From positions 1 to 50,311 of IMG/VR virus record IMGVR_UViG_3300049739_000203: 50,311 nt of DNA, one strand, 5' to 3'. The notes beneath the pieces were generated by a model. It did not search any database. It was not told the DNA's origin and saw nothing but the letters and a program-made list of their open reading frames with translations. This document shows positions 547 through 26,948 of the stretch, piece by piece; positions within the stretch are counted from its first letter, which is position 1, and every line of letters starts with the position of its first letter. A program made the translations under genes and the position numbers. Source of the stretch: a virus.

Positions 547-684
547 CTATTTATCCTCGTTATACCAGAAGTCTTCCCAGTCTTTTTCATCTGCTTCATA
601 GATTGGACAAGGTTCTTCCATTAAAATATCAGTTTTTATTTTTAAATCCTTCATAGCAAGTTTTTTAAAATTTTTATCTTTCAT
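547..684 (-). CDS. Small acidic hypothetical protein, 45 aa
   Basis: A short open frame of 45 codons starting with ATG at 684. It begins MKDKNFKKLAMKDLKIKTD and ends in an acidic, aromatic tail (DEKDWEDFWYNEDK). The ATG overlaps the TAA stop of the upstream DUF6445 gene in a TAATG junction, the coupling used repeatedly elsewhere in this window, which supports it as a real gene. The stop codon touches the GATAAATA promoter-like motif of the next gene. The N-terminal half is basic and the C-terminal half strongly acidic. There is no membrane segment and no cysteine pair. I do not recognise a family. By its coupling it may act together with the oxygenase-fold protein upstream, but this is inference. 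Confidence 0.55.
   Translation of the reverse strand: MKDKNFKKLAMKDLKIKTDILMEEPCPIYEADEKDWEDFWYNEDK
548..555 (-). promoter_or_regulatory. Late-promoter-like motif GATAAATA
   Basis: Reads GATAAATA on the minus strand, 21 nt before the ATG of the tail-tube-fold gene. It matches the T4/cyanophage late consensus NATAAATA and overlaps the stop codon of the preceding 45-codon gene. Confidence 0.5.
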
Positions 685-1394
685 TAATCTAAGAAACAAT
701 TAAACGTTAAACGATCACTTTTCCATTTTGATGCAGTGTAATATGGGGAGTGCCATAAAGTACCTTCGTAAAAGATCATAGTATTATACGAATGTGGAAT
801 TACATGATACCTACTCCATCCATCGATAATAGCAATAGATGGATCACACTTAACATATTTAATTTTATCTATAGGATCTGCATCACGAAAGTAGTTTGCT
901 CTGTAGTTATAATCTCTTGACATATATTCTTCAGATGTACTATTTTTTCTCCATAGAGCAGTTCCATTATCTTTTCCACAATATTCATTATCTTTATTGA
1001 GGGAACATACACCAGCATATCTAATGTTATCTGTATGAGGAAATAAACTTACCTCTCTAACATTTTGATTTACTGCGTAATTTTGGAAAGTAAATTTATT
1101 TAAATAAGTAGAAGTTTCAAAACTTGCAAATTTACTTTTAATTATTTTTCTTATAGGTTTTGCAATCTCAGACAAATTTCCAATTGTGTAAACATAACCA
1201 GGAATATTACTTACTTGACCATCAATAGTATTTACATAAGCAACTGATTTAGCAAACTCTCTTACCTTATCTGGGTTTCTAAAAAATTTTTTAACTACTA
1301 AAATTCTATTATTTGAATTTCCAACATGATAAATGTTAACCCTCCAGTTAAGATCATCTAAAGCAAAAATTTCACATGGGTCAATAATTTTCAT
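684..1394 (-). CDS. DUF6445-type 2OG-Fe(II) oxygenase-fold protein
   Basis: A 236-residue protein with the signature of the DUF6445 group, a relative of the 2-oxoglutarate/Fe(II) oxygenases. A likely metal triad is visible: His120 and Asp122 in FPHTDN, and His215 in GTLWHSPYY. Arg228 in SDRLTFNCF is placed to bind the 2OG carboxylate. A GTALWR motif (residues 144-149) precedes the distal half, as in this family. It would act as a cytoplasmic hydroxylase or related oxidase during infection; the substrate is unknown. It sits between the major capsid gene and a tail gene, not with the other six oxygenases at 17.7-21.0 kb, and is distinct from all of them in sequence. It is coupled by TAATG to the 45-codon gene downstream. 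Fold assignment is fairly sure; enzymatic activity is not shown. Confidence 0.65.
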   Translation of the reverse strand: MKIIDPCEIFALDDLNWRVNIYHVGNSNNRILVVKKFFRNPDKVREFAKSVAYVNTIDGQVSNIPGYVYTIGNLSEIAKPIRKIIKSKFASFETSTYLNKFTFQNYAVNQNVREVSLFPHTDNIRYAGVCSLNKDNEYCGKDNGTALWRKNSTSEEYMSRDYNYRANYFRDADPIDKIKYVKCDPSIAIIDGWSRYHVIPHSYNTMIFYEGTLWHSPYYTASKWKSDRLTFNCFLD

Positions 1395-13309: not shown

Positions 13310-13633
13310 TCAATTTACGTGAACAACACCAGTCATACCTGCTCCCTGATGGGGACCACAGAAGAAGTTATAGTCTCCTGCGTCAGCAAATACAACGTCC
13401 TGTGTTTCTCCTGGAGCAAACAGTAATGATTCTCTAGAGAGATCAGGACGTGCTTCTACAATAATATTGTGTGGTGGTAGTGCTTCGTTGATAAAGTGAA
13501 CTGTGTCACCTGCCGAGATTGTGATCTCATTAGGTTCAAATACTAGGTTCCCACCAGAACCCATTACTACATCTACTGCCCATACTGGGGCAGCAAAAAA
13601 TAACACAACCAGAATCGTAATTAAAGATTTCAT
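13310..13633 (-). CDS. petE: Plastocyanin
   Basis: A 107-residue plastocyanin precursor. Residues 1-19 are a signal peptide ending in VWA (cut before VDVVMG), which would send the protein to the thylakoid lumen or periplasm. The type-1 copper ligands are all present: His55 in LPPHNIIVE, then Cys92, His95 and Met100 in FFCGPHQGAGM with the standard C-x2-H-x4-M spacing. It carries electrons from cytochrome b6f to photosystem I or an oxidase, so the phage version would keep electron flow going in the infected cell. petE is a known auxiliary gene of cyanophages. The mature part is about 88 residues, slightly shorter than host plastocyanins. It is coupled by ATGA to the 55-codon gene upstream. A candidate promoter lies beyond that gene. 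Confidence 0.93.
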   Translation of the reverse strand: MKSLITILVVLFFAAPVWAVDVVMGSGGNLVFEPNEITISAGDTVHFINEALPPHNIIVEARPDLSRESLLFAPGETQDVVFADAGDYNFFCGPHQGAGMTGVVHVN

Positions 13634-17449: not shown

Positions 17450-17456
17450 TACACAC

Positions 17457-17491
17457 AAAAATCCCTTCTTACCTATTTAGGAAGAAGGGAT
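17457..17491 (-). terminator. Intrinsic terminator before gp13
   Basis: On the minus strand ATCCCTTCTT and AAGAAGGGAT form a perfect 10-bp stem with an 11-nt loop. A five-base T run, counting the last base of the stem, then TGTGTG follow. It would end transcripts of the oxygenase block after the 65-codon gene. The loop contains the CTAAATAG promoter-like motif for gp13. Confidence 0.85.
17473..17480 (-). promoter_or_regulatory. Late-promoter-like motif CTAAATAG in terminator loop
   Basis: CTAAATAG on the minus strand, 24 nt before the gp13 ATG. It lies wholly in the loop of the terminator hairpin, so one element may end the upstream transcript and start the neck operon. Confidence 0.5.
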
Positions 17492-17498
17492 CTGAGAG

Positions 17499-17696
17499 TT
17501 ATTCTACTACTTCTGTGGGCGCTGCTTCTGCTGCTTCCTCAGGTTTCTCTTCTAGAAGACCTAGAGTTTCTAGACCGCCTTCCAATTTAATTTTATATTC
17601 TTTTGCTTTGACTAGATTTGTTTCGAGTTCAGCAATTTGCTTTTCGGTTGTAGCAATTTGCTCTTCAAAGTTTGTTTTAAGTTGTGCGGGATCCAT
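17499..17696 (-). CDS. Small coiled-coil protein, 65 aa
   Basis: A 65-residue protein starting MDPAQLKTNFEEQIATTEKQ. Residues ~5-45 follow a heptad pattern (IAELETNLVKAKEYKIKLEG) and should form a coiled coil. The last 17 residues are Glu/Ala-rich and disordered. Its gene lies 5 nt after the last oxygenase and directly before a terminator, so it closes that transcript. A TATAAATA sequence at 17818-17825 inside the oxygenase gene could provide a separate late promoter. Small coiled-coil genes at this place before gp13 look like a standing feature of cyanomyoviruses. The function is unknown, perhaps structural or a chaperone. Confidence 0.6.
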   Translation of the reverse strand: MDPAQLKTNFEEQIATTEKQIAELETNLVKAKEYKIKLEGGLETLGLLEEKPEEAAEAAPTEVVE

Positions 17697-17701
17697 AGTT
17701 A

Positions 17702-18244
17702 TCAGGGGATGAAATTGAAGTTAATTACAAATCGGGAATTGTGTGTGGGTTTACTGCTTGAGTGAAAACGTAAACCATCAAAGAAAACACACCGTCCCTT
17801 CTTTGGTGTGACATTGCTATTTATATCATATTCAGCAATCGGATCTCCGTACATTCTTTCACTAAAATACGTATCACCATCACTATCATTTACATAATAT
17901 AGACAGACCATATGTGGATCTGCTAAGTCAACATGCATAGAATCATATTCTTTATGTCTCACTCCAGGCGTCTGTAAAAAACATCTACCGCGAATGACAT
18001 TAGAAACACTGATTCCTGTATTATAACATGCCTCAAATAAGAGAGGCATAAACATTCCAGTATAACTGCTAGTAGATTTTCCGTCAAGTAAGAACATATG
18101 AGAAAATCCTGGTAGTTGACTCTCTCCATCTTCTGATAGATTGTCGTGGTAGACCCACCTAAAATCTGTATCAACTCTCAATGTTTCGTGAATAAAATTT
18201 TGATAGTTTGGATTGATACAGTTGTCTTTAATAATGTTCTTCAT
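17702..18244 (-). CDS. 2OG-Fe(II) oxygenase (first from left of six)
   Basis: A 180-residue prolyl-4-hydroxylase-like oxygenase. The metal triad is visible as His104 and Asp106 in MHVDLADPH and His161 in RFHSSSKP. Arg171 in NSRFVINFNF is placed to bind 2-oxoglutarate. Before the HxD motif there is a long strand-rich region with an SNVIRGRCFLQTPGV stretch. It would couple decarboxylation of 2OG to hydroxylation of an unknown substrate in the cytoplasm. It overlaps the next oxygenase by 17 nt. It is the last oxygenase of the block, followed by the coiled-coil gene and terminator. All catalytic residues look intact. Confidence 0.72.
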   Translation of the reverse strand: MKNIIKDNCINPNYQNFIHETLRVDTDFRWVYHDNLSEDGESQLPGFSHMFLLDGKSTSSYTGMFMPLLFEACYNTGISVSNVIRGRCFLQTPGVRHKEYDSMHVDLADPHMVCLYYVNDSDGDTYFSERMYGDPIAEYDINSNVTPKKGRCVFFDGLRFHSSSKPTHNSRFVINFNFIP

Positions 18245-18833
18245 CAGGACCCTCCACGTTCCAAGTTAAGTTTCCAGATACTGTCACTCTCTCAAGTATG
18301 GTAGATTTAAAAGGATAGACAGCATGTTTAGTTGTAGATGGAAACATTAGTATAACACCGTTCCAGGACTTATCCACAGGTAACACTTCTGCTTCTAGTT
18401 GGAACGCACCATTGCTTCTATGTGTGTTTCTCTCTTCTTCACCATATGGTATATCGACAAAGATAACAAAACTCACAATACCAGAATGTGTATGGATAGG
18501 ATTGTATTCATTTTGTCTCTGATAATTTACCCATAGGTTTCTTAGTTTGATATATGGTGTAACATTATTTGTCTGTTGAAAATCCCACGGACAGGTTTCA
18601 TATACCTCAGACCACAGTTGTGTCGAAAGATTAATAACATATTCTTCAAATTTAGGACACTCATACTTCCATTCAGATAAACTTGACTGCTGTGCCAAGG
18701 CACCAGCTAGTCGCCCATTATAATTCCAGGTTCTTTCTTGTCTACGTTTCTTTGTGTATGTGTATAGATCTTTGTATACATTATCTGGTATTTTCTCTGA
18801 TATAAATGAGAGGTTGCTTTGTTGATAAATCAT
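18228..18833 (-). CDS. 2OG-Fe(II) oxygenase, HxH variant (TIGR02466/2OG-FeII_Oxy_5 type)
   Basis: A 201-residue protein of the group that has NPIHTHSG in place of the usual HxD. His114 and His116 lie in that motif, the distal His170 in MFPSTTKHAVYPF, and Arg182 in ERVTVSGNL. The order of these motifs and the SGxVSFVIFVDIP strand fit the 2OG-FeII_Oxy_5 family, in which the middle ligand is often His or the site is degenerate. It is therefore a probable oxygenase or an oxygenase-fold binding protein; activity is less certain than for the HxD copies. It is coupled by ATGA to its upstream neighbour, a protein of the same subtype. Confidence 0.68.
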   Translation of the reverse strand: MIYQQSNLSFISEKIPDNVYKDLYTYTKKRRQERTWNYNGRLAGALAQQSSLSEWKYECPKFEEYVINLSTQLWSEVYETCPWDFQQTNNVTPYIKLRNLWVNYQRQNEYNPIHTHSGIVSFVIFVDIPYGEEERNTHRSNGAFQLEAEVLPVDKSWNGVILMFPSTTKHAVYPFKSTILERVTVSGNLTWNVEGPDEEHY

Positions 18834-19345
18834 GGATATAAATCAGCACTTATACTGTATCGTTTTTGATCTTCCACTCCTTTACCTGGTGTATGTGGTA
18901 GATTGGATGGAAATATAAACCACGTCAGTAATTTATTGGGCAAGTAATATGGTTCTCTTTTCGGTATAGGAAACATTGTAGTTCCAGATGTACCTAATTT
19001 TACATACATTATACCAGACAATGTAAAAGGATTCTCTGGATTATGTGAATGCATGTATGGTTCTATTGGATTGTTATTCCAATCTACATACACCCACGAA
19101 CTTATATTGTAATCAAATATATCCATACCCCAAAACCTGGAACATGCATCATAGAAAGACCATTTTAAATGTTTGATCATAGGTTCATCATGTTCTAAAA
19201 AATCATCCTTACCATCAGTAAAGGTAAGTTTAGATACATGATCCATATTTTTAGTAAGGGTATTATCTACAATAGAAGTATCAATAAATTTTATAAGTTT
19301 ATCTGCATCAATATCTACTGGATATCCCCTAATTGCTAATACCAT
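18830..19345 (-). CDS. 2OG-Fe(II) oxygenase-like protein, HxH variant
   Basis: A 171-residue relative of the neighbouring HxH protein. His99 and His101 occur in PYMHSHNPENP, followed by an LSGIMYVKLG strand. The distal His151 is in FPSNLPHTPGKG, and Arg162 in KRYSISADLY. The family pattern (HxH, SGxxYV, FPSxLxH, RxSIS) is the TIGR02466/2OG-FeII_Oxy_5 one. Sequence identity with the next gene looks low by eye, so this is not a recent duplication. Its start overlaps the upstream oxygenase by 10 nt and its end is ATGA-coupled. Whether it hydroxylates anything, and what, cannot be told. Confidence 0.65.
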   Translation of the reverse strand: MVLAIRGYPVDIDADKLIKFIDTSIVDNTLTKNMDHVSKLTFTDGKDDFLEHDEPMIKHLKWSFYDACSRFWGMDIFDYNISSWVYVDWNNNPIEPYMHSHNPENPFTLSGIMYVKLGTSGTTMFPIPKREPYYLPNKLLTWFIFPSNLPHTPGKGVEDQKRYSISADLYP

Positions 19346-19917
19346 TTTCTTGTAGTTTGTGAAATAATATGTTCATGTATATCAGGATCACAGAAAGAAA
19401 AAGCAATCGTTGTCCTGATTTCATTTCCAATTAAACTATTGGGTGGTTGACCTTTGTGTAACCAGTTTGACGGGATGAATACTCCTGTATTAGGAACATA
19501 AGGTGTGAAATGATATTCATCATCAGGTGTCTGACATACAAATTCACCACCCCACTCTACATCCCAGTGTGGTTGATTAAAATAAATGAACGTCCACACA
19601 CCATGCTCTTCCCAATCTTTATGGAAGATGGTATTCTGTCCTGCAGTTTGACCATTGACATGTATCTTACATAGTTTTATATCTCTACGTAGATACTTCA
19701 TCATTTTTAATCTTACCGTAGTAGCACACTTAGTAAAGATAAGATCAGTTCTTAGTGGATGCTGCCAAGACACAGGATCACCTTGACCATATGAAGCATT
19801 GTTGAATGTCCACGTAGCTAAACTATTCATGGATGGAGATCTGCGATTAAAATAATCCCAGAGAGTAATACACTCTGATTCTGGTAATACATTTTTAATA
19901 ACAATAGGTTTATTCAT
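19336..19917 (-). CDS. 2OG-Fe(II) oxygenase, HxD type
   Basis: A 193-residue protein starting MNKPIVIKNVLPESECITLW. The triad is His99 and Asp101 in IFHKDWEEHG and His154 in IPSNWLHKGQPPN, with Arg168 for 2OG in NEIRTTIAFSF. A WGGEFVCQTP strand between them is the expected position for the G-G-E/F turn of prolyl hydroxylase-like folds. The start at 19917 is chosen over one 5 codons upstream because it makes an ATGA junction with the preceding gene. It ends 10 nt inside the next oxygenase. Subtype and substrate are unknown, with some resemblance to enzymes acting on small metabolites or peptides. Confidence 0.7.
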   Translation of the reverse strand: MNKPIVIKNVLPESECITLWDYFNRRSPSMNSLATWTFNNASYGQGDPVSWQHPLRTDLIFTKCATTVRLKMMKYLRRDIKLCKIHVNGQTAGQNTIFHKDWEEHGVWTFIYFNQPHWDVEWGGEFVCQTPDDEYHFTPYVPNTGVFIPSNWLHKGQPPNSLIGNEIRTTIAFSFCDPDIHEHIISQTTRKWY

Positions 19918-20477
19918 GTCCACCAAATCCAACCAGTAATAATATATTTTTCTTGTGTCTCTGATATCTGTCCTCTATGCTTGTGAGTAAGACCTGCTGG
20001 AAAGATAACAGTTTTACCTTTCTCTGCTTTGACAGTGTAATCTTGGTAGTAAAATTCTGTACCACCATCAGGGACATCATTAAGATACGTGATATAGACA
20101 AACGCTCTATCACAACCTTCAAGACCAGATGCATCTACATGCCATGTATAGAATCCATCCCCAGGTTTGTAGTATTGAATCTGAGGTAATTGTTTCGCAA
20201 CAAAAGATAAATTATCAATCTTTAGTGACTGCAAATATTCTTTTATAAAACTATCAACCTGGTTTTTATACAAATCAAATTTATAGTCCTTTGCAGATCC
20301 ACATGGAGCAGCCTCTTCAATAAAAAAATCTTTACTCTTTTTTATTTCAGGGACAATACTTCCCCCACCTACACGACCAGCATAGGTTAACTCTTTCTCG
20401 TCAGCAACATGGAACAGGTCTATTAACTTATCACAAATAGATAAATCGTTTAATTTATACTCTTTAATAAATTTCAT
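19914..20477 (-). CDS. 2OG-Fe(II) oxygenase, P4H-like
   Basis: A 187-residue prolyl-4-hydroxylase-like enzyme starting MKFIKEYKLNDLSICDKLID. His113 and Asp115 lie in YTWHVDASG, then the strand FVYITYLNDVPDGGTEFYYQ, and the distal His165 or His167 in FPAGLTHKHRG. The 2OG-binding basic residue appears to be Lys177 in EKYIITGW rather than Arg, as in some hydroxylases. The frame can be extended 8 codons to a TTG, but the ATG at 20477 overlaps the TGA of the previous gene (ATGA) and is preferred. This is the clearest P4H-type member of the block, together with its upstream neighbour. Confidence 0.78.
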   Translation of the reverse strand: MKFIKEYKLNDLSICDKLIDLFHVADEKELTYAGRVGGGSIVPEIKKSKDFFIEEAAPCGSAKDYKFDLYKNQVDSFIKEYLQSLKIDNLSFVAKQLPQIQYYKPGDGFYTWHVDASGLEGCDRAFVYITYLNDVPDGGTEFYYQDYTVKAEKGKTVIFPAGLTHKHRGQISETQEKYIITGWIWWT

Positions 20478-21043
20478 TTGTATGCTGGTCCTTGTATCCA
20501 ACCCACCAAAGAATGTCTAACACCTGATGTAATTGGTTTTACTCTATGTGGAGTGTCTGCTTGAAATAATATAATATCTCTCTTTTTCAATTCTATCACA
20601 TTTTTTTCTGATGTACGAATTTCAAATTCACCACCCTCAAACTCATCGTTTAATAAAACAGTAAAACTTATTTTACGAATTCTATTCTCTGGTCTTTTAT
20701 CAGGACTCCAGTTTGATTCGTCAATGTGCCAATCATAAAAATCATTAACATCATACTTTGTTAGTTGAAATGGTTCCATAAAATTTACATCTAGATTCCA
20801 CTCACATTTTGAATTTGCAAACGCAACCAATCCATCCATTAATTCGTATACATTACTATCATCTACCCAACAAACTTTAGAGCTTCTATATGGATGATCT
20901 TCACTACTAGTATACGTATCACCATCCCATATATCAGTTTTACCTTGATTGTATTTGTTATATGGTTTTAGTGCTTTTTCTAATAAAGGAAAAAAATCAT
21001 CGTCAAGATGAACGATCATATATTGATGTTTAAATGAGTTCAT
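20474..21043 (-). CDS. 2OG-Fe(II) oxygenase, PKHD/P4H-like
   Basis: A 189-residue oxygenase. His106 and Asp108 occur in FYDWHIDESNW, then KISFTVLLNDEFEGGEFEI, the distal His166 in FQADTPHRVKPI, and Arg176 in SGVRHSLVGW. The LLND-x-FEGGEFEI and FQ-x-DTPHRV-x-PI-x-SGVRHSLVGW patterns are those of PKHD-type hydroxylases. I use the ATG at 21043, which overlaps the U32-methyltransferase gene by 14 nt; a second ATG at 21019 is possible. It is the first of the six oxygenases in transcription order. All catalytic residues are present. Confidence 0.8.
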   Translation of the reverse strand: MNSFKHQYMIVHLDDDFFPLLEKALKPYNKYNQGKTDIWDGDTYTSSEDHPYRSSKVCWVDDSNVYELMDGLVAFANSKCEWNLDVNFMEPFQLTKYDVNDFYDWHIDESNWSPDKRPENRIRKISFTVLLNDEFEGGEFEIRTSEKNVIELKKRDIILFQADTPHRVKPITSGVRHSLVGWIQGPAYK

Positions 21044-22721
21044 TTTTTGTAAGTACCATAACATGAATACCGTTCCACCATCCATTAGGATCTTCTGGAA
21101 TTTTGGTTAGAATCTTTCTCTCAAACAAAAGATTTAAGTTGTTCTCTTTTACAAAGAACTCTGCTGCCTGCACAACACCCATAAAATTTGCATCGTCAAT
21201 AACAAGAATAAACTTGTCCGCAAATGCGGGAATCAAAAATGTTAGATTATCATACTGAGATTGTGGATCATGATCAGCATCATAAAAAATAACATTAGGT
21301 TGTTTGTGTATATTTTTTGGTGTCAAATCTTGAATTGATTTGGGACAGAAGTATTGTTTCTCTCTCAACCCATTAAAGAATATTTTCTTTGGGTTATCAA
21401 TCTCTACATTTACTTCATCTCTAAACGGAGAAATATCTTCTTCTGAATAATCATCAACAGCAAATGCTTCCACATCTCTATTCATGGTAGCAGCAAAAAA
21501 TGTACTACCAGCATGAACACCAAGTTCCATGTAGATAGCATCAGGTTTAGACAAAAGGTTGTTTAAGAAATGCCTTACGATATTGGAAGACAATCCTGGA
21601 TACTTATATCCTTCTTCTACAAACTCACTATCACATCTTGCTGCTTTTTCAATCGATGTTAGAACTAGTTCTATATCATCATCAAAATGTCTATCACTAC
21701 GTTTCATTCTGGACTGGACAACTGAATCACAATAATTACATTTCCAACAATCAAAACCACATGTCTTGATCTTCTCTCTCCAGATGTCAATTGGTTTCTC
21801 TTCTAGAGCTACATCTTCAATGTAGTCATTAAACTGTGGGTGTAGTATCTCCTCGTCTGCCGCCCATCGTTTGATAATATCCATGCTTTCCATGAGACGC
21901 ATTGCATTCTCTCTGCCATGCATCTTGAATACATCAATACCTAGATCAAGAAACTCTTCCCAATCTTTTTTCCAGGGTGGGATAGTTGCTGCTTTCAGTG
22001 ATGCTGCAGGATCTCTTTCATCCCATGAAGAACAAGACACCCTACTTAAACTAGTATTAAAATACTGAGGGTCATCTTTTTCTCTCACCATATTGTAATG
22101 GTAATGTTCGGGCATGATAGGACAACCACCCCAACACCATTCATTGGCAAGTAAGGAAATTTTTACTGGTTTACCAATGTCAGCACAGTATTCTTTTGCT
22201 TCTTTAATCTTAAGTAGAGTATCTCTGTCACGCATAAGATCTCTGTCTAGATTGACATAGTGAAACCCTGCTTTTGCTAGGTTCACAATCTCATTAGGTC
22301 TTGTGACTTCTCTTAGTATAGTATTTTTAATAAACAGTTCAGGAAACTCTTTCTGCAACTGTCCTGTCAAGACCCATGATGTATGGGGTAGAGTTACAAT
22401 ACGAACTCCTGCATCATATAGAAATCTAAAATTTTCAATAAAAATATCTAAGTTTTCTTGAGTAGGAGGAACTTGAATATTATTAAATGTAGCAGACAAG
22501 GGAATGCCTGTCTCTTGGGAAACAAATAAAGCATTGAGAGAGGTATCTCTCATATCCCCATCAACAACATCACCCATCGCATCTTGCACGAAAGGTGGCA
22601 TACGACAGGTGAAATAGATATCATAAATGTAATCTTTGTATTCTTTAAGAAAAGGAATCAAAGTATTAACTACAAAATCTTCTGGTAATTTGGTGTTAAG
22701 AGGGAGAGAAAATTTTGCCAT
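21030..22721 (-). CDS. Two-domain protein: U32-like Fe-S TIM barrel fused to SAM methyltransferase
   Basis: A 563-residue protein with two parts. Residues 1-~335 look like a TIM barrel of the peptidase-U32/UbiU-UbiV type. Repeated strands (GIPLSATFNNIQV, GVRIVTLPH, GFHYVNLDRDL, KPVKISLLANEW) are followed by cysteines at 196, 200 and 230 and a cluster C-x3-C-x2-C-x2-C at 321-331, which could hold an Fe-S cluster. Residues ~390-563 are a class I methyltransferase (Methyltransf_24-like). The SAM loop is YMELGVHAGSTFFAAT, an acidic residue lies in AVDDYS, and FYDADHDPQSQYDNL and VIDDANF follow. U32 relatives take part in RNA or quinone hydroxylation, so the protein may hydroxylate and methylate one substrate. 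It heads the oxygenase series, overlapping both neighbours. The methyltransferase part is secure; the U32 part is less so. Confidence 0.65.
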   Translation of the reverse strand: MAKFSLPLNTKLPEDFVVNTLIPFLKEYKDYIYDIYFTCRMPPFVQDAMGDVVDGDMRDTSLNALFVSQETGIPLSATFNNIQVPPTQENLDIFIENFRFLYDAGVRIVTLPHTSWVLTGQLQKEFPELFIKNTILREVTRPNEIVNLAKAGFHYVNLDRDLMRDRDTLLKIKEAKEYCADIGKPVKISLLANEWCWGGCPIMPEHYHYNMVREKDDPQYFNTSLSRVSCSSWDERDPAASLKAATIPPWKKDWEEFLDLGIDVFKMHGRENAMRLMESMDIIKRWAADEEILHPQFNDYIEDVALEEKPIDIWREKIKTCGFDCWKCNYCDSVVQSRMKRSDRHFDDDIELVLTSIEKAARCDSEFVEEGYKYPGLSSNIVRHFLNNLLSKPDAIYMELGVHAGSTFFAATMNRDVEAFAVDDYSEEDISPFRDEVNVEIDNPKKIFFNGLREKQYFCPKSIQDLTPKNIHKQPNVIFYDADHDPQSQYDNLTFLIPAFADKFILVIDDANFMGVVQAAEFFVKENNLNLLFERKILTKIPEDPNGWWNGIHVMVLTKNELI

Positions 22722-22911
22722 AATCTACAATCACTTTTTCCATATACATGTGTTCTGCTTCTGGGTTTGTGTCCAGAATATACTTATTACTTTCCGCTAA
22801 CTCCAAGAGTTTTTCGCGGTTAAGATCTTTTGTTTGGTCTACCCATTCATATCTACGAAGAATAGAGTGATGGATTACAGGAACCAATTCAAGGTGTCTT
22901 TGACTCGACAT
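22696..22911 (-). CDS. Small hypothetical protein heading the oxygenase block, 71 aa
   Basis: A 71-residue protein starting MSSQRHLELVPVIHHSILRR. The rest is charged and helical (LNREKLLELAESNKYILDTN, EAEHMYMEKVIVDYG). It has no metal motif and no span. It overlaps the 280-residue gene upstream by 23 nt and the U32-methyltransferase gene downstream by 26 nt. It is the first gene after a CATAAATA motif (33 nt upstream), so it probably leads the oxygenase transcript. No family is recognised. Confidence 0.6.
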   Translation of the reverse strand: MSSQRHLELVPVIHHSILRRYEWVDQTKDLNREKLLELAESNKYILDTNPEAEHMYMEKVIVDYGKIFSPS

Positions 22912-23731
22912 TGTTAGTTTGCTCTATTTGTAGTTGTCCTGAGTATTTATGTTGCTGTAGTTTAGGAAGCGCAATACCATCTTCCTGTAACTGTGCTTGG
23001 ATCTGTGGTGCGATCATTTTATTAAGTTTATCAATACCACCACCAATCATACCAGAATATTTAACAGCAACACCAAGTGCTTCCACTTGATCTTCTTCTG
23101 GCATGTCCATGATTGTTGTCATGTTACCAGCACCAATTCTACCATACGATACAATATCCATTGCTGCTTGCTTACCCATACGAGCAACCCAATAAGTTCT
23201 TACTTCATGTGGTTGTTCTTCACAGTAATATTCAATGGGATTGTCCTCGTCAACATACTTGTCAATAATATTTAAAAAATATTTTAACTCTAGTTCAGAT
23301 TGTCTGAGTTTTCTTTTCCAAATACCAACATCATAATCATTTTTCTCCATGTCAATTTGCATCAACTCTTTATCGAGTTCATCAGGAACTAACTCCATGT
23401 CCCTAATTAATCTCTTTCTTAAAATTTCTGCTTTTCTTAAACTGTTTCTATTTTCCATGTAGGCATGATACCTAGTTTCAAGTTCCATCAGTGCTTGACG
23501 GACTTTTCTCCATGGAGTCAATTGAGGGTCAGCAACAAAGTGCTCACACTCATACTCTGTCATGCCACTATTAAAGCGCATACTAGCAGACAGGATATCA
23601 AAATCTTTATTGGTTAGACCAAATTCATTTACGAAAGATTTTGATAAATGGATTTCGTTAGTATCAGAACTAACAATGTTTCTTACATCTGAAACAATAT
23701 CAGATAAATTAGCGTCAGAATTTAAAGACAT
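22889..23731 (-). CDS. Conserved hypothetical protein, 280 aa, charged and helical
   Basis: A 280-residue protein starting MSLNSDANLSDIVSDVRNIV. The middle is a long charged helical region (ALMELETRYHAYMENRNSLR, ILRKRLIRDMELVPDELDKE, LRQSELELKYFLNIIDKY) likely to form coiled coils. The last ~60 residues are Gln-rich and loose. A tract with EEQPHEVRTYWVARMGKQAA precedes a GRIGAGNMTTIM segment. I do not recognise the family. The longer frame upstream overlaps the 269-residue gene more than needed; ATG 23731 gives a 17-nt overlap. Its setting between fibre genes and the oxygenase block allows either a tail-assembly or a host-takeover role. Confidence 0.6.
   Translation of the reverse strand: MSLNSDANLSDIVSDVRNIVSSDTNEIHLSKSFVNEFGLTNKDFDILSASMRFNSGMTEYECEHFVADPQLTPWRKVRQALMELETRYHAYMENRNSLRKAEILRKRLIRDMELVPDELDKELMQIDMEKNDYDVGIWKRKLRQSELELKYFLNIIDKYVDEDNPIEYYCEEQPHEVRTYWVARMGKQAAMDIVSYGRIGAGNMTTIMDMPEEDQVEALGVAVKYSGMIGGGIDKLNKMIAPQIQAQLQEDGIALPKLQQHKYSGQLQIEQTNNVESKTP
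22944..22951 (-). promoter_or_regulatory. Late-promoter-like motif CATAAATA for the oxygenase block
   Basis: CATAAATA on the minus strand, 33 nt before the 71-codon gene and inside the 3' end of the preceding gene. It fits NATAAATA and would put the oxygenase and methyltransferase genes under late control. Confidence 0.45.
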
Positions 23732-24524
23732 ATGCGTCACACTCATATTCAGGTTTGCGATCCCAATCAGTTTCAGAGACCGTTCTGCCCATTTCAATTG
23801 CTTGTTTTTGGGGCAAGAGGATACCGATGTAATCCTCGTATAATATATTTAGGTCCCATACAGAAGTGCAATCTTCAAATTTTTTCACTAATGATTGATA
23901 TGATACGAGCATAGTGGAAAGTTTATCTTCCCATTCTTCTGCTTTTACTAAAATTTTATTTGCTAATTCATCTTTATTAATGTGTCTTTCCATAGAAAGA
24001 TAATCTAGGAAAGGAGTTTTGTGTCCTTGTCCTCCTTTATATGTCAACCATTCTCTTGCTTCATGTTTTTGAATCTCCCAAGATGCAGATTCTAAATCTG
24101 TTGTGTTCTTGAGATTTCTAAATCTTGTATTGTACTCGTCTTCAATAATTTCTTTTGCAAAATCAACCATAAAATCCATAACATCTTTTAAAATGTTATC
24201 CGTTAATTCAATGGGCACTTTAAGAATTTCATTAGCAGGTGTCCAAGCAAATCCTGCTTCTCCTGTATTTACAGCAACCTTACCAAAAGGTCTGATCTCA
24301 GAGAAAAAGTTAGATCCGTTATAAGCTTGTTGTTTAGTAACTTCCTTATACTTGTGTTCCCACTCTTTGTAGATGACTTGATAAATTGTTTCGCTAACTT
24401 CTACACACGAGAAGTGCATCAACGAAAACATTTCGTTGTAATGTAAGCGAAGATCTCCAGTTGCCGATGAACTGACAAACTGCTCTTGCTTGATTTCCTT
24501 TTCGTTTATGATTAGATATCTCAT
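23715..24524 (-). CDS. Conserved hypothetical protein, 269 aa
   Basis: A 269-residue protein starting MRYLIINEKEIKQEQFVSSS. It has mixed alpha/beta character at the N-terminus and helices in the second half (ILKDVMDFMVDFAKEIIEDE, ELANKILVKAEEWEDKLSTM). Its single recognisable feature is a region NGSNFFSEIRPFGKVAVNTG. The start is chosen because it forms a TAATG overlap with the 428-residue fibre-like gene; the frame runs 15 codons further upstream without an ATG match. Two basic/acidic helical proteins in tandem after a fibre gene may be fibre chaperones or assembly factors, but this rests only on position. Confidence 0.6.
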   Translation of the reverse strand: MRYLIINEKEIKQEQFVSSSATGDLRLHYNEMFSLMHFSCVEVSETIYQVIYKEWEHKYKEVTKQQAYNGSNFFSEIRPFGKVAVNTGEAGFAWTPANEILKVPIELTDNILKDVMDFMVDFAKEIIEDEYNTRFRNLKNTTDLESASWEIQKHEAREWLTYKGGQGHKTPFLDYLSMERHINKDELANKILVKAEEWEDKLSTMLVSYQSLVKKFEDCTSVWDLNILYEDYIGILLPQKQAIEMGRTVSETDWDRKPEYECDAYVFKF

Positions 24525-25810
24525 TATTGTGCCTGAAGTGCGGTTACAGAAGCGGCACCAGAACAGCAACCGCCAGAAGATTGACCATAATGACCTTTGG
24601 GTCTTGTCGCAGCACCCATGTTGGTCTCAACGTCAGTAGTATAATCCCACTTGGTTGTGTGGTTGTTTTGTTGACCATCATATTGTCCCATCATATAACC
24701 CCAGTCCTGTCCCATCATGAAGTTTTCTTCACCGTAAGCACGGACTTTCGTTCCGTTTGCTAGACCAGCTCCACTTGAACCACTATACTTTGACCATGGT
24801 GATGTGACATTGTTTCCAGTACCAGCATAGAAATGACCGTACTTGGAAGGTAGGAACTTACAAACTCCATCAGGAGCAGCATTGGATGACCAACCAGACC
24901 AGGAATCATTTGAGTGATCTACAGAATATCTACTACCAGAGAAAGACGCCCAAGATTTTTCTTCATCTCCACATGCAGCAGTATGATCACTACCAGAAGG
25001 TGAACTACCTACCTGATACATAATCTCGGAAGGATAATGTAGTTTACCTACAGCAGCGTTACCGCCACCTAAGTTATAACCAAACTGTTGTTTTTGTGCG
25101 GTAGCACATGCATTCCTGTCTCTACTGACAGGCATGTTCCAACCACCAACAACAGTGTATCCCATGACGCCTCTAGGGTCGTCACCTTCCCAACCATATG
25201 GGGAAGTTGGAGAGTAAGTACCACCACCAGGATTACTTCCTGTAGTACCAAACATTCTCCTCATACCTGTGTGTAGGTTGATGGAATCAGTATGACTGGA
25301 TGCTCCCGTGAATGCATTAATGCAACCGTGAGCATAACCAAAGTAATCACTCCAGGTACAGTCAGCATAAGTTAGTGCTCTAGTTAACTGCTCACCACAA
25401 TAGAATGTAATATCATTTGCGTGCCATGTTTTATTAACAGTTCTCCAAGGATTAGATCCTTTATACCCCGCCACCAGAAAACCATGTGTTATCAAACTCC
25501 TATATCTGAATCCTGTAAGAGGAGCAGATGCAACAGTTTGACCAGGATACGCCCAGAAAACACCGTTTTCACCATCGGATACTAGATAAGATCCTCTAGT
25601 GATATTTGCAGGTTCGGGGATACCCCCACCAACCTCATCCCAGTCAGATCCATTCCAGATCTGTGCTTTGTTTTCATCGGTATTATAAATGATTTGACCG
25701 ACGTTTGGGGATGCTGGTCTTCCCGCGTTGTTAAAAGATGGTAGTTTTAAACCTTGAGTGGTTAAACTAGCATTTCCTGTAACAACTGTTCCAACAGTTA
25801 ACTGAGACAT
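24524..25810 (-). CDS. Tail-fibre-like structural protein, 428 aa
   Basis: A 428-residue protein with a fibre-type N-terminus. Residues ~38-62 hold GQIIYNTDENKAQIWNGSDW, a short module also found in the 1834-residue and 251-residue proteins. The rest is a single Trp/Tyr/Gly/Asn/Ser-rich domain (for example FRYRSLITHGFLVAGYKGSN, WSDYFGYAHGCINAF, MMGQDWGYMMGQYDGQQ) with about ten cysteines or pairs, ending in GGCCSGAASVTALQAQ. This composition suits a beta-propeller-like or globular adhesin at a fibre tip or virion surface. No enzymatic residues are seen. A CTAAATAC motif lies 23 nt upstream. Confidence 0.68.
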   Translation of the reverse strand: MSQLTVGTVVTGNASLTTQGLKLPSFNNAGRPASPNVGQIIYNTDENKAQIWNGSDWDEVGGGIPEPANITRGSYLVSDGENGVFWAYPGQTVASAPLTGFRYRSLITHGFLVAGYKGSNPWRTVNKTWHANDITFYCGEQLTRALTYADCTWSDYFGYAHGCINAFTGASSHTDSINLHTGMRRMFGTTGSNPGGGTYSPTSPYGWEGDDPRGVMGYTVVGGWNMPVSRDRNACATAQKQQFGYNLGGGNAAVGKLHYPSEIMYQVGSSPSGSDHTAACGDEEKSWASFSGSRYSVDHSNDSWSGWSSNAAPDGVCKFLPSKYGHFYAGTGNNVTSPWSKYSGSSGAGLANGTKVRAYGEENFMMGQDWGYMMGQYDGQQNNHTTKWDYTTDVETNMGAATRPKGHYGQSSGGCCSGAASVTALQAQ

Positions 25811-26192: not shown

Positions 26193-26948
26193 TCAAGTAT
26201 ACTCCCATACGATAACGCAACCAGCACCGCCGTTGCTATTGTTATAAGCAAAATCATTCTGTGAATAATAACCATAACCACCGCCAGAACCCCACTGTCC
26301 GTGAGTAATTTCTTCTTGGTTGTTATAGTAATGGTGAGACGATCCTGCTTTGTGCCAATAACTAGATCCGCCTGCACCTTCTCTGTTGGCATCGTGTGCC
26401 ATTTCTCCACCACCACCAGGGACGTTAATGTCTCCACCACTGGCATTTCCACCAGGACCACCTTGGTGAGGGTTGTCTGATTGTCCGCCTTGTCCACCAG
26501 TAGCAGTACAATAAGAACCAAAAGATGAAGTTCCTCCCGTTCCTGCTCTTCCGCCATTTCTTACATATGCACCACCGCCACCATACTGGTAAGTAACGCT
26601 AGCAACACCAGAGAGATCAATATATTTGATTGAAGTAGCGCCGCCACCTCCACCTGCACCACGGTAGCTGTTATCATTAATGCGTGCTCCACCTCCACCG
26701 CCAGTAACATATACTAAAACATGGTTGCAACCCGCAGGTTTTGTCCAAGTTCCAGATCCACCAGAAGTAGATTTAGCATTCCACGTACCATTTTGCGATG
26801 TATACACTTGAATGCCAAGTAAAGCACCAGGAGTGGTCATGTCAGAATAACCACTGCCATCCCAAATTTGTAATTTATCATTCTGCAGATCCATAATATT
26901 AACACCAGCGGTGTTTTGGATCTGGTCAACTTTTAAAATGCCTGCCAT
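26193..26948 (-). CDS. Glycine-rich fibre tip/adhesin-like protein, 251 aa
   Basis: A 251-residue protein. The N-terminus (MAGILKVDQIQNTAGVNIMD and KLQIWDGSGYSDM) is a fibre attachment-type module related to the start of other fibres here. Residues ~63-240 are glycine-rich, with repeated GGGGG runs (VTGGGGGARINDNSYRGAGG, YQYGGGGAYVRNGGRAGTGG, GGPGGNASGGDINVPGGGGE) and ending VIVWEYT. Gly-rich adhesins such as the T-even gp38 fold as polyglycine sandwiches at fibre tips and set host range. A similar role is plausible, supported by the giant fibre gene 6 nt upstream. The sequence should vary quickly between related phages. Not an enzyme. Confidence 0.65.
   Translation of the reverse strand: MAGILKVDQIQNTAGVNIMDLQNDKLQIWDGSGYSDMTTPGALLGIQVYTSQNGTWNAKSTSGGSGTWTKPAGCNHVLVYVTGGGGGARINDNSYRGAGGGGGATSIKYIDLSGVASVTYQYGGGGAYVRNGGRAGTGGTSSFGSYCTATGGQGGQSDNPHQGGPGGNASGGDINVPGGGGEMAHDANREGAGGSSYWHKAGSSHHYYNNQEEITHGQWGSGGGYGYYSQNDFAYNNSNGGAGCVIVWEYT

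Follow-up and report, generated by a model that had tools for sequence, protein, structure and literature searches.

Why should a cyanophage carry six different oxygenase genes in a row, packed between its tail-fibre and neck genes? The question is raised by IMG/VR virus record IMGVR_UViG_3300049739_000203, a 50.3-kb (50,311-nucleotide) record with T4-like cyanophage structural genes, which was analyzed over its whole length and is called the window below. Its minus strand carries the genes A71, B and C to H, the last six of which probably encode active and distinct 2-oxoglutarate (2OG)-Fe(II) oxygenases, as judged from their sequences, within one late transcription unit. The array is inherited with the genes of the fibre tip, and we give about even chances to the reading that it is a late, fibre-linked cassette that hydroxylates the fibre-tip adhesin, with methylation or halogenation of the adhesin added in certain phages. 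Up to five 2OG oxygenases per cyanophage genome (Sullivan 2010, PMC3037559), and nine in one genome (PMC9146016), have been reported, so that the first-pass annotation of this locus, which spoke of single oxygenase genes in cyanophages, understated their number. These enzymes have so far been explained by DNA repair or by 2OG drawdown (PMC3037559, PMC9146016).

Six divergent oxygenases with conserved metal sites

Ten minus-strand genes were re-read across the locus: A71, B (563 amino acids), C to H, I65 and gp13. The genes and signals of the array are the following.

22944..22950, minus strand: late-type promoter motif ATAAATA, within the 3' end of the preceding gene
22696..22911, minus strand: A71, small variable protein, first in the unit; matches no known family
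21030..22721, minus strand: B, N-terminal TIM-like barrel (possibly U32-like fold) and predicted C-terminal class I methyltransferase (residues 399-510)
20474..21043, minus strand: C, predicted 2OG-Fe(II) oxygenase, HxD..H, PKHD/PiuC-like; PF13640 1.7e-15
19914..20477, minus strand: D, predicted 2OG-Fe(II) oxygenase, HxD..H; PF13640 3.4e-12
19336..19917, minus strand: E, predicted 2OG-Fe(II) oxygenase, HxD..H, phrog_274 type; PF13640 1.9e-4, phrog_274 1e-17
18830..19345, minus strand: F, oxygenase-like, HxH..H variant; phrog_81 (2OG oxygenase) 7e-7 over the full length
18228..18833, minus strand: G, 2OG-FeII_Oxy_5 family, HxH..H variant; PF13759 7e-11, phrog_81 4e-21
17702..18244, minus strand: H, predicted 2OG-Fe(II) oxygenase, HxD..H, phrog_274 type; phrog_274 4e-35, PF13640 7e-5
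17456..17493, minus strand: intrinsic terminator between I65 and gp13

Neighboring genes overlap throughout, by 26 bp (A71/B), 14 (B/C), 4 (C/D), 4 (D/E), 10 (E/F), 4 (F/G) and 17 (G/H). The earlier description of six adjacent, overlapping and divergent oxygenase genes, four with HxD..H and two with HxH..H, holds at these coordinates on the minus strand, and the six products share 19-29% pairwise identity. The HxD..H triads are H106/D108/H166 in C, H113/D115/H165 in D, H99/D101/H154 in E and H104/D106/H161 in H, and the HxH..H triads are H99/H101/H151 in F and H114/H116/H170 in G; each is followed by a distal basic residue (C R176, D K177, E R168, F R162, G R182, H R171). The triad and the distal residue are invariant in 31 distinct orthologues of C (one of which is gapped at H166), 29 of D, 24 of E, 21 of F, 21 of G and 15 of H; the orthologues are 47-100% identical, and of all alignment columns only 25-51% are invariant. 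The metal sites are thus kept in each of the six genes.

F and G lack the carboxylate ligand of HxD, and HxH is present in all 21 orthologues of each; since it is kept in every orthologue, it is, on these alignments, a stable variant rather than decay. Because G still matches PF13759, both proteins are best described as a putative three-histidine variant, with a likewise putative dependence on 2OG. In Pfam, C, D and G score above the cut-off, E and H just below it, and F weakly (0.009), whereas PHROG places E, F and H among the 2OG oxygenases. By these profiles, membership of the family is a firm prediction for C, D and G, a moderate one for E and H, and a weak one for F. An AlphaFold model of F built with 13 orthologues reached a predicted local distance difference test (pLDDT) score of 55, too low for a claim about its fold, and an hhalign comparison of F with G gave no match, both profiles being probably too shallow. 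C resembles the PKHD-type hydroxylases PiuC and YbiX by sequence (PDB 3dkq 2e-5, 9ghl 7e-5; NCBIfam PRK05467 1e-16) but is shorter, falls below the NCBIfam cut-off and sits in a phage operon.

A probable single late transcription unit

An ATAAATA motif lies 33 nucleotides upstream of A71; the cyanophage late promoter motif is NATAAATA (PMC2984593). ATAAATA occurs 10 times in the window, each time on the coding strand, and the promoter ahead of A71 is of the same class as those before p251 and p428. Among related loci the late motif precedes A71 in 33 of 33 and p251 in 21 of 21, but it is never found upstream of any gene from B to H. Because the motif overlaps the coding sequence of its upstream neighbor, that protein may account for part of the 33/33 conservation, and many loci are close relatives of one another; for these reasons the contrast between A71 and B to H is the stronger evidence. 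At the other end, ahead of gp13, a hairpin of -20.8 kcal/mol (z-score -4.7) is followed by a U-tract (UUUUU). The late-type motif and the strong terminator noted in the first pass are both borne out, and A71 to H appear to form one late transcription unit.

Inheritance of the array with the fibre tip

The array is flanked upstream by genes of the fibre module and downstream by I65 and gp13.

26193..26948, minus strand: p251, glycine-rich gp38-type tail-fibre adhesin/assembly protein; phrog_863 2e-74, PF21722; own late promoter
24524..25810, minus strand: p428, putative fibre-tip protein, candidate substrate; phrog_1417
23715..24533, minus strand: p284, fibre-module accessory gene; phrog_1604
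22889..23740, minus strand: p302, fibre-module accessory gene; phrog_1409
17499..17696, minus strand: I65, 65-residue coiled-coil backbone protein adjoining gp13; phrog_580; outside the exchanged cassette

Relatives were drawn from 80 IMG/VR loci of B. The order fibre, p251, p123, p428, p284, p302, A71, B, C to H, I65, gp13 recurs in about 40 environmental phage contigs, a count that takes in contigs covering only part of the order, and it holds down to 50-70% identity; the genes thus co-occur, as the idea of a shared function had called for. Going upstream from B and passing over A71, the first recognizable gene that is not an oxygenase is p302 in 70 of the 70 loci showing one. Where a locus reaches I65 or gp13 (21 loci), the run after B has six oxygenases at 11 loci, seven at 6 and five at 4. 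The additional gene found between D and E in some relatives is itself an oxygenase (PF13640 6e-7), and the few loci without F or without H lack it as a whole gene. The C-H set was not found in any isolate, and searches of the phage collection with E and C returned only homologues of less than 60% identity.

Which of its two neighborhoods the array travels with can be read from its divergence. Over nine non-redundant loci, oxygenase divergence tracks p428 when gp13 is held constant (partial Mantel r 0.82, p 0.0004), whereas its correlation with gp13 with p428 held constant is -0.06 (p 0.61). A plain presence correlation over all loci scored missing tip genes as zero and was set aside for the partial Mantel test. 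Individual phages tell the same story. In ACG-2014j, gp13 and gp15 are 98% identical to those of the window, yet none of C to H is present, and four other oxygenases occupy the interval; indeed, ACG-2014j and S-CAM4 keep p428-like, p284, p302, B, I65 and gp13 in the order of the window but, in place of C to H, have oxygenases of other families set around B. In ACG-2014i the gp13 protein is 92% and I65 95% identical, and the interval holds neither B nor oxygenases. I65 thus stays with gp13 as part of the conserved neck backbone, and the exchanged block therefore ends at H; the coiled-coil gene that the first pass had taken as the end of the array lies outside 17702..22911 and persists in ACG-2014i, where the array is missing. 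Together, these data tie the inheritance of the array to the fibre-tip genes, not to the neighboring head-neck genes.

Two further enzymes were seen among the relatives. An S-adenosylmethionine decarboxylase gene (PF02675 4e-31) is inserted between C and D in loci L030, L033 and L034, and a tryptophan halogenase gene (PF04820) lies upstream of B, beside oxygenases, in L063, L064, L065 and L069.

Genes B and A71

B belongs to phrog_1458 (E 3e-231), and its AlphaFold model (pLDDT 79.5) finds as PDB fold matches both O-methyltransferases, macrocin O-methyltransferase included, and the U32 peptidase 5d88. Its C-terminal domain matches Methyltransf_24 in 30 of 31 members (best 9e-9) and is, by family profile and modeled fold, a class I S-adenosylmethionine-dependent methyltransferase. 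The methyltransferase half of the U32-methyltransferase fusion proposed earlier thus stands, whereas the U32 half is unproven and is weakly suggested by fold similarity. The barrel matches 5d88 (E 4e-6, TM-score 0.64 by target) as one among several TIM barrels. It has seven invariant cysteines (196, 200, 230, 321, 325, 328 and 331), lying in loops of low model confidence, as candidate ligands of a putative four-Cys [4Fe-4S] site like that of the U32 hydroxylases UbiU, UbiV, RlhA and TrhP. B differs from these proteins in being fused to a methyltransferase; none of the 31 members matches PF01136 (U32) at E<=1, and hhalign comparisons with Escherichia coli UbiU, UbiV, RlhA and TrhP are collinear but not significant and give no equivalence of its cysteines to those of U32 proteins.

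A genome scan for a cellular origin of B yielded only two loci, L106 and L107, on short contigs with uninformative context; they are binned as metagenome-assembled genomes of Dehalococcoidia and Euryarchaeota and are probably misbinned phage contigs. Proteins resembling iron-sulfur (Fe-S) proteins, with weak Fer4 matches, are encoded beside B at L068:9682-10533 and in its relatives, and inside an oxygenase array at L099:5941-6642. A71 is 29-69% identical among relatives, with R5 and Y64 as its only invariant positions; with two such positions and no conserved core, its candidacy as a precursor of the ribosomally synthesized and post-translationally modified peptide type was rejected.

Oxygenase arrays of cultured cyanophages and their misleading names

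Is this arrangement peculiar to one environmental lineage? In 14 cyanophage genomes searched with PF13640, PF13759 and phrog_274 we counted about 150 oxygenase-like places, of which 61 fall in groups of at least three, merged counts that are approximate. S-RSM4 (Kyanoviridae) carries nine oxygenase genes, one recognized by weak matches only, between the fibre and gp13 (SRSM4_132-142), at the same site as the window array, from the tail fibre to the I65-gp13 neck genes; its oxygenase set is another one, includes an Fe-S-like protein and lacks B, and it has been annotated piecemeal as ferrochelatase, DNA endonuclease V and oxygenase. The block gp41-gp54 of Syn9, right after the fibre and fibre-assembly genes, holds two genes for tryptophan halogenases and ten in which the triad motif (HxD/E/H..H) is present; eight of the ten have profile support, some of it sub-threshold. 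Unlike the window, Syn9 has the halogenases and a JmjC_2 protein (gp49, PF08007 1e-16), has no B, and its fibre is not beside gp13. Sf-FP1 combines a halogenase with oxygenases in a fibre-linked interval, and P-RSM6 has a similar array. B is absent from S-RSM4, Syn9, P-RSM6 and Sf-FP1 (4/4).

Of note, JmjC_2-type genes stand inside arrays at L090:14051-14761 (Syn9) and, as judged by eye, at L092:13713-14408 (Sf-FP1), and the tryptophan halogenases (PF04820) of L090:7419-10524 share a fibre-linked interval with oxygenases. In S-SSM7 (L102:22336-32380), the interval between fibre and gp13 mixes Nol-like carbamoyltransferases, heptose-pathway genes, a cysteine dioxygenase, oxygenases and a halogenase.

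Several genes with an oxygenase motif or profile are named denV or DNA endonuclease V, DNA endonuclease, ferrochelatase or minor coat protein (L006:8698-9198, L007:8686-9195, L090:15352-17598, L099:4735-9209). The phrog_274 genes share with T4 DenV (endonuclease V) the name alone: Syn33 denV has an HxD..H..R motif and a sub-threshold PF13640 match (1.5e-3), and its product matched no PDB chain at E<=1 and revealed no relationship to DenV. Such names look like propagated misannotation.

What the array might do

We propose that A71 to H would act as a late unit of the tail-fibre module, swapped along with that module as a cassette. The six non-heme iron oxygenases (five to seven in relatives) would most likely be post-translational hydroxylases, each oxygenating a separate site of a tip adhesin made concurrently, namely p428 and/or the glycine-rich p251; B may methylate the same target, and the modification could tune or diversify the binding of the tip to the host surface, or shield the tip. 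Hydroxylation of a protein agrees with the JmjC_2 protein of Syn9, gp49, since characterized JmjC_2 members hydroxylate proteins. Enzyme activity, the fibre tip as target and methylation by B are the three steps that we infer. The first pass had suggested a single multistep hydroxylation/methylation pathway, which is unproven, given that the largest isolate arrays lack B; the six oxygenases may instead act each at a different site. Its further suggestion that virion proteins, fibre glycans or a late host target are modified gains on the side of the fibre, through co-inheritance with the tip and the other oxygenase and halogenase sets at the same site in isolates, while the substrate is still a matter of inference. 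What had been observed at the locus is thus confirmed, and the interpretation partly supported.

Several results count against a fibre-tip target. Numerous 2OG oxygenases of cyanophages are found at other places in the genome, among the replication genes of P-SSM2, near uvsW, or by tRNA and sugar genes in RN05-S, and from the replication-gene locations the family is not fibre-specific. F combines a weak family assignment with an unusable structure model, the partial Mantel analysis covers few loci, and co-inheritance could stem from recombination breakpoints outside the block, with no functional link. Furthermore, the heptose and carbamoyl-transfer genes of S-SSM7, in the equivalent interval, raise the possibility of a glycan target. 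Chemistry on glycans is the strongest competing explanation: the oxygenases and B would build or alter a glycan or small molecule, for instance a sugar bearing hydroxyl and methyl groups, with which the fibre or the host surface is decorated. The methyltransferase domain of B, which resembles Methyltransf_24, TylF-type O-methyltransferases and the macrocin O-methyltransferase fold, agrees with this, as do S-SSM7 and an RN05-S oxygenase that adjoins sugar-nucleotide and glycosyltransferase genes; but we recognized no glycosyltransferase or sugar-nucleotide gene in the window block, the array contigs or the annotated S-RSM4, Syn9 and Sf-FP1 intervals, and we hold this explanation to be rather unlikely.

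In another explanation, host targets would be modified late in the infection, or 2OG would simply be drawn down so as to shift nitrogen signaling. JmjC_2 relatives of the Syn9 gp49 type can hydroxylate ribosomal proteins, and a 2OG/NtcA hypothesis has been published (PMC3037559). Six to ten divergent enzymes, in lineage-specific sets tied to the tip, would be unexpected for bulk turnover, and late expression is poor timing for regulating the host, which makes this explanation improbable. About as improbable is a cargo of genes without joint function at a recombination hotspot: relatives whose gp13 is nearly identical differ widely in this interval, with gain and loss of entire genes, but order, catalytic residues and one promoter persist over deep divergence, and the gained genes repeatedly bring the same chemistry. 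A role in the repair of DNA or the modification of its bases, proposed in the cyanophage literature (Weigele 2007, as cited in PMC3037559; PMC9146016) and favored by homologues that adjoin uvsW or sit among replication genes, appears very unlikely here, the array being late, placed between fibre and neck genes and inherited with fibre-tip genes, and none of the six oxygenases matching an AlkB-type family in the Pfam search. DNA repair and 2OG drawdown both fit the window array less well than hydroxylation of the fibre tip.

Should these enzymes indeed act on the fibre tip, they would add a new layer of chemistry to host recognition in an abundant group of ocean viruses. Our data point to a large subset of the oxygenases at the tail-fibre module, with late expression, several of them hidden under wrong names. 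More broadly, and tentatively, exchangeable late enzyme cassettes, in which oxygenases are joined by a methyltransferase, a tryptophan halogenase or other partners, could diversify the receptor-binding tip, and host recognition would then depend on tip-matched post-translational chemistry as well as on sequence. A partial survey of the literature on fibre-linked oxygenases, hydroxylated phage fibres and halogenase-fibre links found no such link.

Other genes of the window

A seventh oxygenase-like gene (684-1394, minus strand), a DUF6445 member (PF20043 1.7e-10; phrog_1644, "minor coat protein"), adjoins the major capsid gene, and its kin occur within fibre-linked arrays of other phages. A plastocyanin-like gene (13310-13633, minus strand), annotated so in the relatives ACG-2014i and ACG-2014j, occupies the gap between gp16 and gp17.

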